Source of the DNA: Rickettsia typhi
GTDB lineage: Bacteria > Pseudomonadota > Alphaproteobacteria > Rickettsiales > UBA1997
Length of the DNA stretch: 29,554 bases
Direction of reading: 5' to 3'
Assembly (NCBI GenBank): GCA_945906835.1
Contig: CAMDRL010000001.1
Location: 1 to 29,554, forward strand
The position numbers and the translations under genes were made by a program. Numbering within the stretch: the first letter of the stretch is position 1; each line of letters begins with the position of its first letter. The notes below the pieces were generated by a model. That model worked only from the letters and a program-made list of their open reading frames with translations, was not told the DNA's origin and did no database searches. Below are positions 6,119 to 27,139 of the stretch, piece by piece.

Positions 6119-6188
6119 GACAATCTGGTGAAGGCGGAAATCCAGAAGGTGTTATTAAAAATGGATTCCCACATTAGCTGGAATGACA
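6119..6188. repeat. Degenerate GGCGGGAATCCAG-type palindrome between efflux genes
   Basis: A decayed inverted repeat (AAGGCGGAAATCCAG at 6131-6145, then ATGGATTCCC at 6161-6170, with AGCTGGAATGAC at the right end). It matches the dispersed element also seen at 11390-11442, at 13647-13673 and in degenerate form at about 22247-22309. It separates the adaptor from the pump within a presumed operon. Confidence 0.65.
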
Positions 6189-6208
6189 AAGATGGTTTAA
6201 GCGTTTGG

Positions 6209-8370: not shown

Positions 8371-8519
8371 GTAACATCTTTAATCAACCATCGGTTGAGC
8401 GTAGTCGAAACAATCGGAAGGTTCTTGCTGTGGATTTGCGTCACAGAAGGAACCTTATGATGGTTTCGACTACGCTCAACCGGACGGGTTGGTGATTTAC
8501 TAAAAACTTAAGATGTTAC
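8371..8519. repeat. Long palindromic repeat, GGTTGAGCGTAGTCGAAAC family, copy 1
   Basis: The left arm at 8386-8430 contains GGTTGAGCGTAGTCGAAAC. The right arm, from about 8444 to 8490, contains GTTTCGACTACGCTCAACC. Outer complementary ends (GTAACATCTTTA at 8371 and TTAAGATGTTAC at 8508-8519) extend the palindrome. A second copy follows valS at 16033-16135. It lies upstream of pyrB and ends at the stop of the small ORF 8520-8711, for which it could act as a terminator. Confidence 0.88.
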
Positions 8520-12831: not shown

Positions 12832-12974
12832 CCTCCCCTAACCCCTCCTTATCAAGGAGGGGAACTAAAAGCATTATCCTCATTATCAAGGATGGGAGCT
12901 GAAAGCATTCCCCTCTTTATCAAGGAGGAGAACTAAAAGCATTCCCCTCCTTGATAAGGAGGGGTTAGGGGAGG
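12832..12974. repeat. Long palindromic repeat, CCCCTCC family, copy 2, with tandem core
   Basis: Perfect 33-bp inverted arms lie at 12832-12864 and 12942-12974. Between them two further degenerate units of about 34 bp continue the series (ATCAAGGA...CTAAAAGCATT type), so the element looks like a tandem expansion of one hairpin unit. It fills the gap between bamB and valS and could fold into several alternative hairpins. Copy 1 is at 1411-1556. Confidence 0.9.
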
Positions 12975-13012: not shown

Positions 13013-16003
13013 ATGACAGAAATAAAATCCCTCCCTGATAAATACGATGCTAAAACTCGCGAAAAATTTTGGCAAAATCACTGGAAAGAACAAAAGATTT
13101 TTTCTTGGAAAAATGATTTACCAAAAGATCAAACTTTCGTAATCGACACTCCACCTCCAACAGTTTCAGGACTTCTTCACATGGGGCATGTTTTCTCTTA
13201 CACGCAAGCAGATTTCGTAGCGCGCTTTCAAAGAATGATTGGCAAAGATGTTTTTTATCCAATGGGTTTTGACGATAATGGACTTCCTACGGAACGCTTA
13301 GTTGAAAAAATTATTGGCAAAAAAGCTGGGGTTTATGAGGCGGAAAATGGTCATGGATCTTTTGTTATGAAATGTCGTGAAGTTGTTGAAGAAGCAGAAA
13401 AAGAATTTGAGATTTTATTCAATTCAATCGCTCTTTCAGTTGATTGGGATCAGAAATATCAAACAATTTCTTCTGAATCACAAAAAATTTCACAAGCTTC
13501 GTTTTTAGATTTACATAAAAAAGGTTTAGTTGAGAAAAAATTTGAACCTGTATTTTGGGATATTTCAGACCGCACGGCTTTGGCGCAGGCGGATTTGATT
13601 GATAAGGAAGTTGAGGGGGTGATGAATGAGATTGAGTTTTCTGTTTGTCATTCCCGCGAAGGCGTGAATCCAGACGATCTTGAGAAAATCATTATAATGA
13701 CAACTCGTCCAGAGCTTTTGCCCGCTTGCGTTGCGGTGATGGTTCATCCTGATGATGAAAGATATAAAAAATTTCATGGATCTTATGCGATTACTCCGCT
13801 TTTTGGTGTGAAGGTAAAAATTATTCCTGATGATTTGGTGCAGTTGGATAAAGGGACTGGCGCGGTGATGTGTTGTACTTTTGGGGATGAGACTGATATT
13901 CGTTGGTGGAAGAAGTATAGTTTACAGTTACGGGTAATTATTGGACAAGATGGTAAAATGTCTGAATTATCTGCCGCTCCAAAACCTGATAACAAAAACG
14001 ATCCAGATGATATTTTATTTTTTGGATTTAATGGACATATCAAAAGAGAAGAATGTCTTAACCTAGATAATCTTGGAGAGGTTTATAAGAATCTAGTGTT
14101 TGGTAAAAATATAAAACAAGCCAAAGATTCAATAATTGAAGCTTTAAAAAATACTCAATCTAATCACCAAAGCGGGAAGGGGTTTGTAAACCCTTCCCCA
14201 TGTTCATTAAATGGGCATGAACGGGAGGACGGGGTTGCAAACCCCGTCCTGAGCGAGGTCCTGCGCCAGAATGACAATGGGAGCGTTTTGTTGAAGCAAG
14301 AAACTATTAAGCGTGCTGTAAAATGTGCCGAGCGTTCAGGTGTGCCAATCGAAATTCTTGTTGTTCCACAATGGTTCATAAAAATTCTCGACAAAAAAGA
14401 TCAACTGAAAGCCAAAGCCGCAGAGTGCAATTGGTATCCTGAATATATGAAAGTGCGTATTGATCAATGGATTGATGGTTTGCAGTGGGATTGGTGTATA
14501 AGTCGTCAAAGATTTTTTGGTGTAAAATTTCCAGTGTGGGACTTGTATGTTAAAGATGAAAATATCTCAAGCTCTTGGTATGTGGGTGGTATTTTTAATC
14601 AGCTTAAAGCTGATGAGAATCCAATTCATAAAAAAATAGTAGCTTTACCAGAACAACTTCCAGTAGACCCAGAAATTGATTTACCTTTAGGATATAAACA
14701 AGTTGGTATTGATGAAAACAATAATAGAGTGGTAGTAGATGATAAAGGTTTAGAGTGGATAGTCGATCCAGAAACCGACATCATGGATACTTGGATGACT
14801 TCTTCGGTTTCTCCCCAGCTTTCATCTCGTGGAATTAGTGTGGAAATGGATCTTGGTAATTCAGAGCGTCATGAAAAACTTTTCCCAGCTGATCTTCGTC
14901 CGCAGGCTCATGAAATTATTCGTACTTGGGCGTTTTACACTTTGACCAAAGCGGTGTTGCATCAAAATTCTATTCCGTGGAAAAACCTGATGATCTCTGG
15001 TTGGTGTTTGGCGGCTGATAAAACTAAGATGAGTAAATCAAAAGGTAATGTGGTTACTCCAACTTCTTTGATTGAAGAAAAGGGTTCTGATATTGTGCGT
15101 TATTGGGCTTCAACTTCGCATTTGGGTGCTGACACTGCTTACAGCGAAGAGGTGTTTAAGATTGGGCAAAAGTTGATTACTAAGTTGTTTAATGCGGCGA
15201 AATTTGCTTCTATGAATTTTTCTATGCTGAATGTTGAGGGTGGTGTTGAAATTGCAAGCAGAAGCGGGAAGGGGTTTGTAAGTCCTTCCCCATGTTCATT
15301 AAATGGGCATGAACGGGAGGATGGGGTTACAAACCCCGTCCTGCTGCAAGTGCTGAAAGGAGGCGTTACTGAAGCTGCAGATTTGTGGATTTTATCTCGT
15401 TTACAACAAACTGTAAAACGCGCAACTGATGAGTTTGAAAAATTCGAATATGCCCGTGCCCGCGAAGCAATTGAAGAATTTTTTTGGAAAGATCTTTGTG
15501 ATAATTATTTAGAAATTTGTAAAGTTCGTTCTTACGGTTTAGTGGCTGAAAAGATTGCTGGCGTTGAATTAACTGAAGCCCAAAAATCAGAAGTTACAGC
15601 AAAACAGCAAAGTGCAATTGTAACTTTAAGAATTTGTCTAAATACAATTCTAAAACTTTTCTCACCTTTCATTCCGCATATTTGTGATGAAATTTATTCA
15701 ACAATTTTTGCTGAAGAATTTGCAAAAACTGGTTCAATAAATGCTCGTGGCAATTGGCCTAAAATTTCTGAAGAATATTTTAATCAGAAATTTTTTGATA
15801 TTGGTGAAGCTGCTTTAGCTATAATTTTTGAGGTAAGAAAGTTTAAATCAGAGCAAAATATTTCAATGAAAACTACGGTAAAAAAATTAGTTATTAATTG
15901 TGAAAAAGATTTGTCTGAAATTGCTGAAGATTTAAAGAATGTTTGTAATGCGGAAGAGTTGGAGTTTGTTAAAGTTGGGCAGTTGGTTGAGGTGGTATTG
16001 TAA
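13013..16003 (+). CDS. valS: Valyl-tRNA synthetase (archaeal-type, as in Rickettsia) with three in-frame repeat insertions
   Basis: A class I synthetase that charges tRNA-Val and edits mischarged threonine. The HIGH motif is HMGH (residues 56-59) and KMSKS is residues 672-676. The segments FYPMGFDDNGLPTERLVEK, TTRPELLPACVAVMVHP (editing domain), KCAERSG, DWCISRQRFFG and RPQAHEIIRTWAFYT closely follow my recollection of Rickettsia ValRS, known as an archaeal-genre enzyme. At 996 aa it is longer than the Rickettsia protein. Residues about 212-221 (CHSREGVNPD), 387-413 and 751-777 are translated from palindromic repeats. The last two are nearly identical to each other. Despite them the frame is intact and all catalytic motifs remain, so the enzyme is probably functional. 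Confidence 0.97.
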   Translation: MTEIKSLPDKYDAKTREKFWQNHWKEQKIFSWKNDLPKDQTFVIDTPPPTVSGLLHMGHVFSYTQADFVARFQRMIGKDVFYPMGFDDNGLPTERLVEKIIGKKAGVYEAENGHGSFVMKCREVVEEAEKEFEILFNSIALSVDWDQKYQTISSESQKISQASFLDLHKKGLVEKKFEPVFWDISDRTALAQADLIDKEVEGVMNEIEFSVCHSREGVNPDDLEKIIIMTTRPELLPACVAVMVHPDDERYKKFHGSYAITPLFGVKVKIIPDDLVQLDKGTGAVMCCTFGDETDIRWWKKYSLQLRVIIGQDGKMSELSAAPKPDNKNDPDDILFFGFNGHIKREECLNLDNLGEVYKNLVFGKNIKQAKDSIIEALKNTQSNHQSGKGFVNPSPCSLNGHEREDGVANPVLSEVLRQNDNGSVLLKQETIKRAVKCAERSGVPIEILVVPQWFIKILDKKDQLKAKAAECNWYPEYMKVRIDQWIDGLQWDWCISRQRFFGVKFPVWDLYVKDENISSSWYVGGIFNQLKADENPIHKKIVALPEQLPVDPEIDLPLGYKQVGIDENNNRVVVDDKGLEWIVDPETDIMDTWMTSSVSPQLSSRGISVEMDLGNSERHEKLFPADLRPQAHEIIRTWAFYTLTKAVLHQNSIPWKNLMISGWCLAADKTKMSKSKGNVVTPTSLIEEKGSDIVRYWASTSHLGADTAYSEEVFKIGQKLITKLFNAAKFASMNFSMLNVEGGVEIASRSGKGFVSPSPCSLNGHEREDGVTNPVLLQVLKGGVTEAADLWILSRLQQTVKRATDEFEKFEYARAREAIEEFFWKDLCDNYLEICKVRSYGLVAEKIAGVELTEAQKSEVTAKQQSAIVTLRICLNTILKLFSPFIPHICDEIYSTIFAEEFAKTGSINARGNWPKISEEYFNQKFFDIGEAALAIIFEVRKFKSEQNISMKTTVKKLVINCEKDLSEIAEDLKNVCNAEELEFVKVGQLVEVVL
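13647..13673. repeat. Half of a GTCATTCCCGCGAAGG repeat, in frame in valS
   Basis: GTCATTCCCGCGAAGGCGTG followed by AATCCAG is one half-palindrome of the family seen at 11390-11442. Here it encodes CHSREGVNPD immediately ahead of the conserved editing-domain segment IIIMTTRPELL. Only the left half is present. Confidence 0.85.
14170..14251. repeat. 82-bp multi-hairpin element in valS, copy 1
   Basis: Three hairpins follow one another: GGGAAGGGGTTT / AAACCCTTCCC, GTTCAT / ATGAAC, and AGGACGGGGTT / AACCCCGTCCT. The element is read as SGKGFVNPSPCSLNGHERED and onward (residues 387-413). The next ~28 bases, to AGAATGACAATGG at 14280, also look foreign to the enzyme. Confidence 0.93.
15262..15343. 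repeat. 82-bp multi-hairpin element in valS, copy 2
   Basis: It is identical to copy 1 (14170-14251) at 78 of 82 bases, in the same orientation and the same reading frame (residues 751-777; two amino-acid differences, N to S and A to T). It lies in the linker between the KMSKS-bearing catalytic part and the helical anticodon-binding domain. Similarity to copy 1 ends just after CCCCGTCCTG. Confidence 0.93.
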
Positions 16004-16032: not shown

Positions 16033-16135
16033 AACCGTTGGTTGAGCCTATTCGAAACCATCGGAAGGTTATTGCTGCGGATTTAAATCACAGCAAGAAC
16101 CTTCCGATGGTTTCAAATACGCTCAACCGACGGTT
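16033..16135. repeat. Long palindromic repeat, GGTTGAGCGTAGTCGAAAC family, copy 2
   Basis: The 45-bp arms at 16033-16077 and 16091-16135 pair at 41 of 45 positions around a 13-base loop, forming a very strong hairpin 30 bases after the valS stop. It probably ends valS transcription, although no T-run follows. A short AACATCTTTAAT match at 16010-16021 is also shared with copy 1 (8371-8519). Confidence 0.92.
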
Positions 16136-27062: not shown

Positions 27063-27139
27063 AGATCCTGAAACAAGTTCAGGATGACGGAAGTTGGGAT
27101 ATCCTTCTTGGCCGTCATCCTGAATTTGTTGCAGGATCT
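27063..27139. repeat. AGATCCTGAA...GTCATCCTGAA palindrome after rpsU
   Basis: The 28-bp arms at 27063-27090 and 27112-27139 pair at 26 of 28 positions around a 21-base loop. The arms share GTCATCC and AGGATCT with the elements at 9480 and 26679. Its place 27 bases after the rpsU stop suits a terminator role, but there is no T-run. Confidence 0.88.

Follow-up and report, generated by a model that had tools for sequence, protein, structure and literature searches.

Two near-identical hairpin repeats lying in frame within a valyl-tRNA synthetase gene are probably copies of a REPIN-type element

The 29,554-nucleotide stretch analyzed here (contig CAMDRL010000001.1, hereafter the window) contains a valyl-tRNA synthetase (ValRS) gene, valS, into which two near-identical 82-bp hairpin repeats are inserted without loss of the reading frame. 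We propose that both repeats are likely copies of a REPIN-type element, made of paired repetitive extragenic palindromes (REPs), moved by a REP-associated tyrosine transposase (RAYT), and similar in behavior to the Rickettsia palindromic elements (RPEs). The proposal is built from sequence and combines (i) a family of elements, (ii) a RAYT gene with related hairpins, (iii) deleted RAYT copies, (iv) in-frame copies in many genes, and (v) the recurrent use of the same protein loops. The original prediction had seen in the repeats a candidate new family of coding palindromic elements, RPE-like in their insertion; the family does exist and is often found in frame, but it is best placed among REPINs and not as a kind of its own, because in related bacteria similar hairpins lie on either side of a RAYT gene. 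The host gene and the two copies are laid out as follows.

13013..16003, forward strand: valS, valyl-tRNA synthetase, host of the inserts; intact 996-codon open reading frame (ORF), NCBIfam NF009687
14170..14251, forward strand: element copy 1, REPIN-like inverted hairpin pair at site 1; residues 387-413, within the low-confidence segment 383-413
14173..14199, forward strand: left end hairpin of copy 1 (left REP), -15.8 kcal/mol; aligns to the left end of RAYT-bearing elements
14198..14223, forward strand: middle hairpin of copy 1 (variable center), -8.6 kcal/mol; the center differs in length and sequence among relatives
14225..14251, forward strand: right end hairpin of copy 1 (right REP, inverted), -20.2 kcal/mol; aligns to the right end of RAYT-bearing elements
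15262..15343, forward strand: element copy 2, at site 2; residues 751-777, within the low-confidence segment 742-779
15265..15291, forward strand: left end hairpin of copy 2, -13.6 kcal/mol
15290..15315, forward strand: middle hairpin of copy 2, -8.6 kcal/mol
15317..15343, forward strand: right end hairpin of copy 2, -18.4 kcal/mol

The two copies lie in the same orientation, in phase with the ORF 13013-16003, and agree at 78 of 82 positions (~95% identity; mismatches at positions 21, 22, 61, and 68; copy-against-copy BLAST E-value, 2.6e-32); a BLAST search of the window at an E-value of ≤1e-3 found no third copy. Each has a strong hairpin at either end and a weaker one between them, confirming the three-hairpin structure first described, and each half of the element matches the other half inverted, giving two inverted palindromic REPs per element. 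When 121-base contexts of the copies were folded, none of 200 shuffles did as well (z of -3.5 for the first and -5.7 for the second), the second context folding preferentially as a single long imperfect hairpin. The copies were also correctly described as G/C-rich in an AT-rich gene, with a GC content of 54.9% and 52.4% versus 36.5% in the remaining valS. ORF translation likewise bore out the two 27-residue peptides expected at residues 387-413 and 751-777 of an intact valS, SGKGFVNPSPCSLNGHEREDGVANPVL and SGKGFVSPSPCSLNGHEREDGVTNPVL, respectively, with the general form SGKGFV(N/S)PSPCSLNGHEREDGV(A/T)NPVL; GFVNPSPCSLNGHER and GFVSPSPCSLNGHER are predicted peptide segments that would mark the translated insert.

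The host gene has 996 codons without an internal stop, retains conserved motifs, and scores 954.5 bits with the NCBIfam valine--tRNA ligase model NF009687 (cutoff, 738), as an enzyme of the PRK13208 type. With the window being one contig, an assembly artifact or a decaying valS pseudogene might be suspected, but this open frame with its motifs, together with the database entries P0002 to P0006 and P0008, which carry the family at one or both sites, makes such an explanation scarcely credible. An intein or intron was rejected as well, since the 27-residue peptide is too short and holds no domain and none of 19 NCBIfam protein matches was an intein model. In an Rfam scan of the window, two tRNAs alone reached gathering scores.

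The element belongs to a family of ~80- to 100-bp paired inverted hairpins, with an 88-base consensus. Genome contigs were scanned with a ValRS alignment, and among the best 80 of 405 loci encoding a relative, the element was found at an E-value of ≤1e-3 in 9 of 19 genomes picked from these valS loci. One of these loci, L034, led to G010, titled an uncultured Alphaproteobacteria metagenome-assembled genome (MAG), whose family comprises 61 genomes. The genome-wide search suggested with the original prediction was carried out in these relatives, 15 of the 61 being element positive at the same threshold. A 23-base end-hairpin pattern (≤1 mismatch, both strands) occurred in 11 of them, with 74 matches in G010 and 34 in G058, and its reversed control gave zero matches. 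The best near-full-length copy in other genomes is 84% identical to the window element, and plasmid records gave no match to it. The GTCTCTGAC hairpin loop type was present in one copy each in G001 and G058, which is uninformative on covariation with the RAYT.

Could the repeat be an RPE proper, i.e., a member of a family described in Rickettsia? RPEs, according to the review PMC10969869, are palindromic elements of ~150 bp that insert in frame into unrelated genes and are tolerated by the protein. The window's repeats share the palindromes, the in-frame position in unrelated genes, and a peptide in the range of 20 to 30 residues, and the names of the ValRS relatives connect the host to Rickettsiales. 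However, they measure 82 bp, and the element found no match at an E-value of ≤0.01 in 23 genomes from the genus to which a Rickettsia tamurae locus belongs, nor any in 20 genomes selected via further valS loci (the set of 61 includes 4 of these), in searches that had no positive control and included no comparison with RPE sequences. Moreover, PMC3733652 files the intragenic RPE-4 and RPE-6 of Rickettsia conorii with REPs and presents CGTC repeats, the type listed for Rickettsia, as not associated with transposase genes, whereas the window's family flanks a RAYT. Membership in an RPE family is therefore very unlikely, and these searches are compatible with the earlier impression that the sequence is unlike a known RPE.

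Weak Y1 matches near element copies pointed to locus L200. There, element positions 1 to 45 lie at 1276-1321 and the second half at 1887-1932 (weak, E-value of 7e-4), on either side of a 178-amino-acid HUH/tyrosine (Y1) frame (1351-1885); this hairpin-gene-hairpin order is repeated in L201 and nearly so in L168. The three loci, tested with NCBIfam model NF047646 (REP_Tyr_transpos; cutoff, 80), scored 87.2 (L200), 87.1 (L201), and 79.5 bits (L168), and the HxH and YxxNNP motifs are intact in 5 of 5 full-length RAYT loci. A PDB sequence search with the RAYT protein gave a weak match to TnpA-REP (4er8; E-value of 0.15). The L200 protein matches 6 of the 61 family genomes at 1e-10, all six being among the 15 element-positive ones (hypergeometric probability of 9.0e-5, or 5.0e-4 with five full RAYTs). 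In G061 (L211) and G019 (L210), RAYT copies have lost their middle: the beginning of the reading frame is joined directly to the final codons, after which comes a right end; these internally deleted copies are the intermediates expected for the step from transposon to repeat-only element.

Several observations weigh against a RAYT-moved REPIN. The flanking hairpins of L166 and L199 are diverged, with weak matches (best E-values of 4e-6 and 0.008), and the Pfam Y1_Tnp scores of five loci lie near the cutoff of 23 bits (24.0, 23.8, 23.3, 20.6, and 19.8). The cooccurrence test ignores shared ancestry; in addition, the RAYT's own flanking hairpins help to make a genome element positive, mainly G061, and the RAYT of G019 is merely a fragment. 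G010 and G058, which hold the most copies, have no matching RAYT at an E-value of ≤1e-10; the gene may have been lost there, or the MAGs may lack parts of the genome. The weak Y1 gene that G010 does carry is of another type with other flanking repeats. Finally, a canonical GTAG head is not general in this family: at the full G010 copies, CTAG stands at a fixed position outside 15 of 86 ends (7/43 left and 8/43 right; expected, 0.1), the motif having been noticed on these same ends; the heads at L208 are, by eye, one GTAG and one CTAG; and the two copies in the window show no clear tetranucleotide head. A RAYT gene between inverted REPs of the element's family was observed in relatives only; none was noticed in the window, for which no profile search aimed at a RAYT was made. 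As a separate observation, locus L164 (G010:C78) carries a second, different Y1 transposase gene, with GRPQGSPLQ-like repeat peptides in the adjoining frames.

We propose a model in which the element, with its pair of inverted REP hairpins enclosing a short variable center, would correspond to the two ends of a RAYT element that lacks the transposase gene. Its hairpins would be recognized by a RAYT encoded elsewhere, a single-strand transposase of the HUH/tyrosine kind, which would copy or move the element, probably in trans and by a single-strand route. An insertion would survive where its length keeps the frame, where the site is a flexible exposed linker, and where the frame used is free of stops; the surviving insert would then be translated as a disordered peptide, which is probably made and probably neutral to the enzyme.

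How often genes accept the element was estimated in a G010 sample of 31 stretches chosen around copies and L034, which is not a random one and contains 53 matched places (43 full length). Eighteen of these (15 full length) lie inside open frames that extend for 60 codons or more on either side, two of them being the two ends of one longer-center element in L140, which leaves 17 elements. The 35 other places are outside long frames, so that many copies exist and most are nongenic. Random windows of the same stretches fell in long frames in 861 of 1,500 draws (binomial probability of 0.0005 for 18/53); hence, genes are avoided yet far from closed to the element. No open frame at all exists in 9 of the 28 full nongenic copies. 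NCBIfam, run on 10 of the 18 host ORFs, named nine, with five over the cutoff (ileS, hscA, gpmI, acsA, and leuS) and four below it but clear (mfd, with 795 of 800 bits, a Uup-like ABC-F protein, a BioF-like enzyme, and CobT); the tenth had no NCBIfam match at 1e-30. The copies are read in both orientations and in several frames, for instance as TGFVTPSS...REDGVTNPVL or as DGVCNPVSTFSS...VRTGLQTPS.

The same places are used repeatedly. In the isoleucyl-tRNA synthetase (IleRS) of G010 and G019, the element occupies the same loop, ~9 and ~20 residues, respectively, upstream of the strand ending in TTTPWT; in the leucyl-tRNA synthetase (LeuRS) of G010, it lies ~20 residues upstream of TTRPDT, and in the ValRS P0008, it precedes TTRPE by a few residues. 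We take these three motifs to mark homologous positions of the editing domain. In G008 and G010 alike, a BioF/ALAS-like gene has the element in the loop that precedes the GTFSK motif; the frame used differs between the two genomes, an argument for independent insertions.

For ValRS itself, the best 120 of 8,000 scored relatives were aligned, and the contents of the insertion sites were classified with regular expressions on the 120 rows, so that the counts are rough; at site 2, the alignment cuts shortened P0036 and P0119 and missed the insert of P0020, visible in the alignment. Among these listed homologues, site 1 is empty in 81 of 120 and site 2 in 97 of 120, and some others carry different sequence, as expected if both peptides were extra. 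Site 1 is filled in 39 of 120. The window's family accounts for 23 of these cases (accompanied in 5 by a trace of another family) and a CHPERSEGS-type repeat by itself for 4; a PPLEGGS...LPQGEGD-type repeat stands by itself in 5 and is joined to a complete DUF559 endonuclease domain in 6, and one sequence is unclassified. Site 2 (filled in 23/120) holds the window's family in 8, a CHPERSEGS type in 5, an LRQAQGD/LSLSKHD type in 5, and unclassified sequence in 5, among which P0117 resembles, by eye, the window's family read in another frame. The ValRS sites are thus apparent hot spots shared with unrelated repeats. Contigs of environmental MAGs titled Rickettsia typhi (L003, L011, L028, L049, L051, and L069) have a valS 43 to 62% identical to that of the window, and their titles look doubtful.

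A third insertion site and a probable remnant of another element add to this picture.

13644..13672, forward strand: third valS insert, an unrelated hairpin repeat, part of VCHSREGVNPDD (residues 211-222); matches the reverse complement of 6162-6190; absent from P0006
14150..14168, forward strand: probable remnant of the left end of a PPLEGGS/DUF559-type element, putatively interrupted or replaced by copy 1; 19 bases compared with L142, one difference

In the 43 of 120 rows viewed, the third site is occupied by CHSREG(V/G/W)NPDD in P0001 to P0005, an insert that P0006 lacks. P0019, P0020, and P0026 have other repeats there, and P0008 has the window's family, which this protein accordingly carries at all three sites. 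In the same rows, window positions 14543-14647 (residues 511-545) are wholly unlike the YSKRAGEEGKILVAD-like loop of the homologues, P0002 excepted, and are perhaps a decayed older insert. At positions 13955-14098 (residues 315-362), close ValRS homologues differ greatly in both length and sequence, with no obvious repeat.

This distribution bears on whether a single transposition into valS was followed by gene conversion or template switching within the gene to give the second copy. The two copies are, at 95% identity, closer to each other than to the best near-full-length copy elsewhere (84%), as such copying would predict, but a recent common master copy also explains the similarity. In addition, some homologues have the family at just one of the two sites (site 1 in P0007, P0009, and others; site 2 in P0015), and P0003, among the six closest sequences, has the family at site 1 and a different repeat at site 2. 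We therefore consider copying within valS unlikely.

The original prediction placed the peptides at domain boundaries as extra sequence. Compared with the Thermus ValRS (1gax), residues 318-424 and 735-786 of the window's enzyme (107 and 52 residues) face 28 and 12 chain residues, respectively, which upholds extra sequence at both places; at site 1, however, the repeat makes up only part of it, and likely remnants of other repeats flank it. An AlphaFold2 model from 74 diverse alignment rows reached a mean predicted local distance difference test (pLDDT) of 84.8 and a predicted template modeling (pTM) score of 0.84 (an earlier one from 22 close-homologue rows, with a mean pLDDT of 42, was discarded), and Foldseek aligned it to 1gax with a template modeling (TM) score of 0.80 by target length. 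Five segments fall below a pLDDT of 50 (321-341, 383-413, 420-422, 521-533, and 742-779), and the inserts lie in two of them, so both peptides are predicted to be disordered linkers of a folded enzyme; the model thus places them, as anticipated, in low-confidence linkers of a confidently modeled protein. The third insert (211-222) is outside these segments.

A selected, functional addition to ValRS, binding tRNA or a partner, might be read from the family being in frame at site 1 in all of P0001 to P0006 and at site 2 in P0001, P0002, and P0004 to P0006. Against such a role stand the many listed homologues with empty sites, the unrelated sequence found there in others, the predicted disorder of the peptides, and the presence of the family in many unrelated genes and in several frames, which together render it highly improbable.

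The PPLEGGS-type inserts point to a second kind of element, carrying DUF559, an endonuclease that we take to be Vsr-like. DUF559 was found 20 times in 25 genomes, and seven of its frames are continuous with a host protein, namely, ValRS (valS of L142 and L144), IleRS (ileS of L143, L146, and L147), and RecJ (recJ of L145 and L202); NCBIfam agrees on the hosts of L142, L145, L146, L147, and L202 and on the G010 ileS of L143. An eighth long frame, at L154, has a weak DUF559 match (25.5 bits). Of the six in-frame loci evaluated (L142 to L146 and L202), five are flanked by inverted repeats of 38 to 103 columns (85 to 97% identity), and at L146 the contig end leaves 24 inverted-repeat columns. Elsewhere, inverted repeats are clear at L150, L151, L156, L157, and L158 and weak or absent at L148, L149, L152, L153, L155, and L203.

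A trace of such a cassette probably remains in the window at 14150-14168, where 19 bases match, with one difference, the stretch of L142 that leads into the inverted repeats around its DUF559 gene, which are all in frame in the valS of L142; the final 16 of the 19 bases correspond to the start of the inverted repeat there. In P0002, the right end of a PPLEGGS/DUF559-type element is kept after the copy of the window's family. The remnant on the left of copy 1 and the other end in P0002 lead us to think that copy 1 landed in, or replaced, an older insert, as seems to be the case from the sequence. DUF559 as the mover of the window's own family was rejected for now; the DUF559 loci inspected have, by eye, other terminal repeats.

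We tentatively suggest that, in this lineage, class Ia synthetases may offer several unrelated palindromic mobile elements shared landing sites in their linker loops, mainly those around the editing domain. Two or more kinds of mobility system would be involved, RAYT-dependent REPINs and inverted-repeat DUF559 cassettes lying in frame in ValRS, IleRS, and RecJ. The cassette would be self-contained and would need no splicing, an open frame being enough, and the repeat-only PPLEGGS inserts may, judging from their peptides, be its deletion derivatives.

Compared with known systems, the family resembles the RAYTs and REPINs described in PMC2817692 and PMC3116915 in its inverted palindrome pairs, its many copies, its flanked HUH/tyrosine transposase gene, and its scattered nonautonomous copies. 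It differs in that about one-third of the matched G010 places are in frame in long ORFs, whereas published REPs are described as extragenic for the most part, with a GT(A/G)G head; here, the head looks like a degenerate CTAG. In-frame REPs as such are already in print, PMC3733652 describing REPs and REP dimers within ORFs that encode 20 to 30 residues, including tRNA synthetase genes of three species and genes of R. conorii. Such intragenic GTAG- and CGTC-REPs share with the window's element the location within ORFs, tRNA synthetase genes included; the difference lies in the transposase, none being linked to CGTC-REPs in that paper, whereas a coding palindromic family has a RAYT partner here. 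With miniature inverted-repeat transposable elements, the family has in common a repeat-only form of transposase-flanking ends and the existence of internally deleted transposase copies, but its ends are hairpins of the IS200/IS605-RAYT kind. In the openly licensed literature, we found no description of this family, its RAYT link, the ValRS insertion hot spots, or the DUF559 cassettes. A coding family with a candidate transposase from related uncultured bacteria makes the question of how the coding palindromic elements of Rickettsiales move testable in vitro. Moreover, the repeated use of the same ValRS and IleRS loops, and of a comparable place in LeuRS, constitutes a natural record of the tolerance of essential enzymes to foreign peptides.

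Other repeats surround valS in the window. A 97-base hairpin repeat is present in two copies, at 8386-8482 and 16033-16129 (84% identical), the second directly 3' of valS. Inverted repeats of the CCCCTCCTTATCAAGGAGGGG type lie at 1418-1549 and 12832-12974, the latter being 100% complementary across 33 bases and located immediately 5' of valS. Finally, positions 27063-27139 form an inverted hairpin pair, one strand of which starts with CCGTCATCCTGAA and which looks, by eye, like the CGTC-tagged REPs of PMC3733652.

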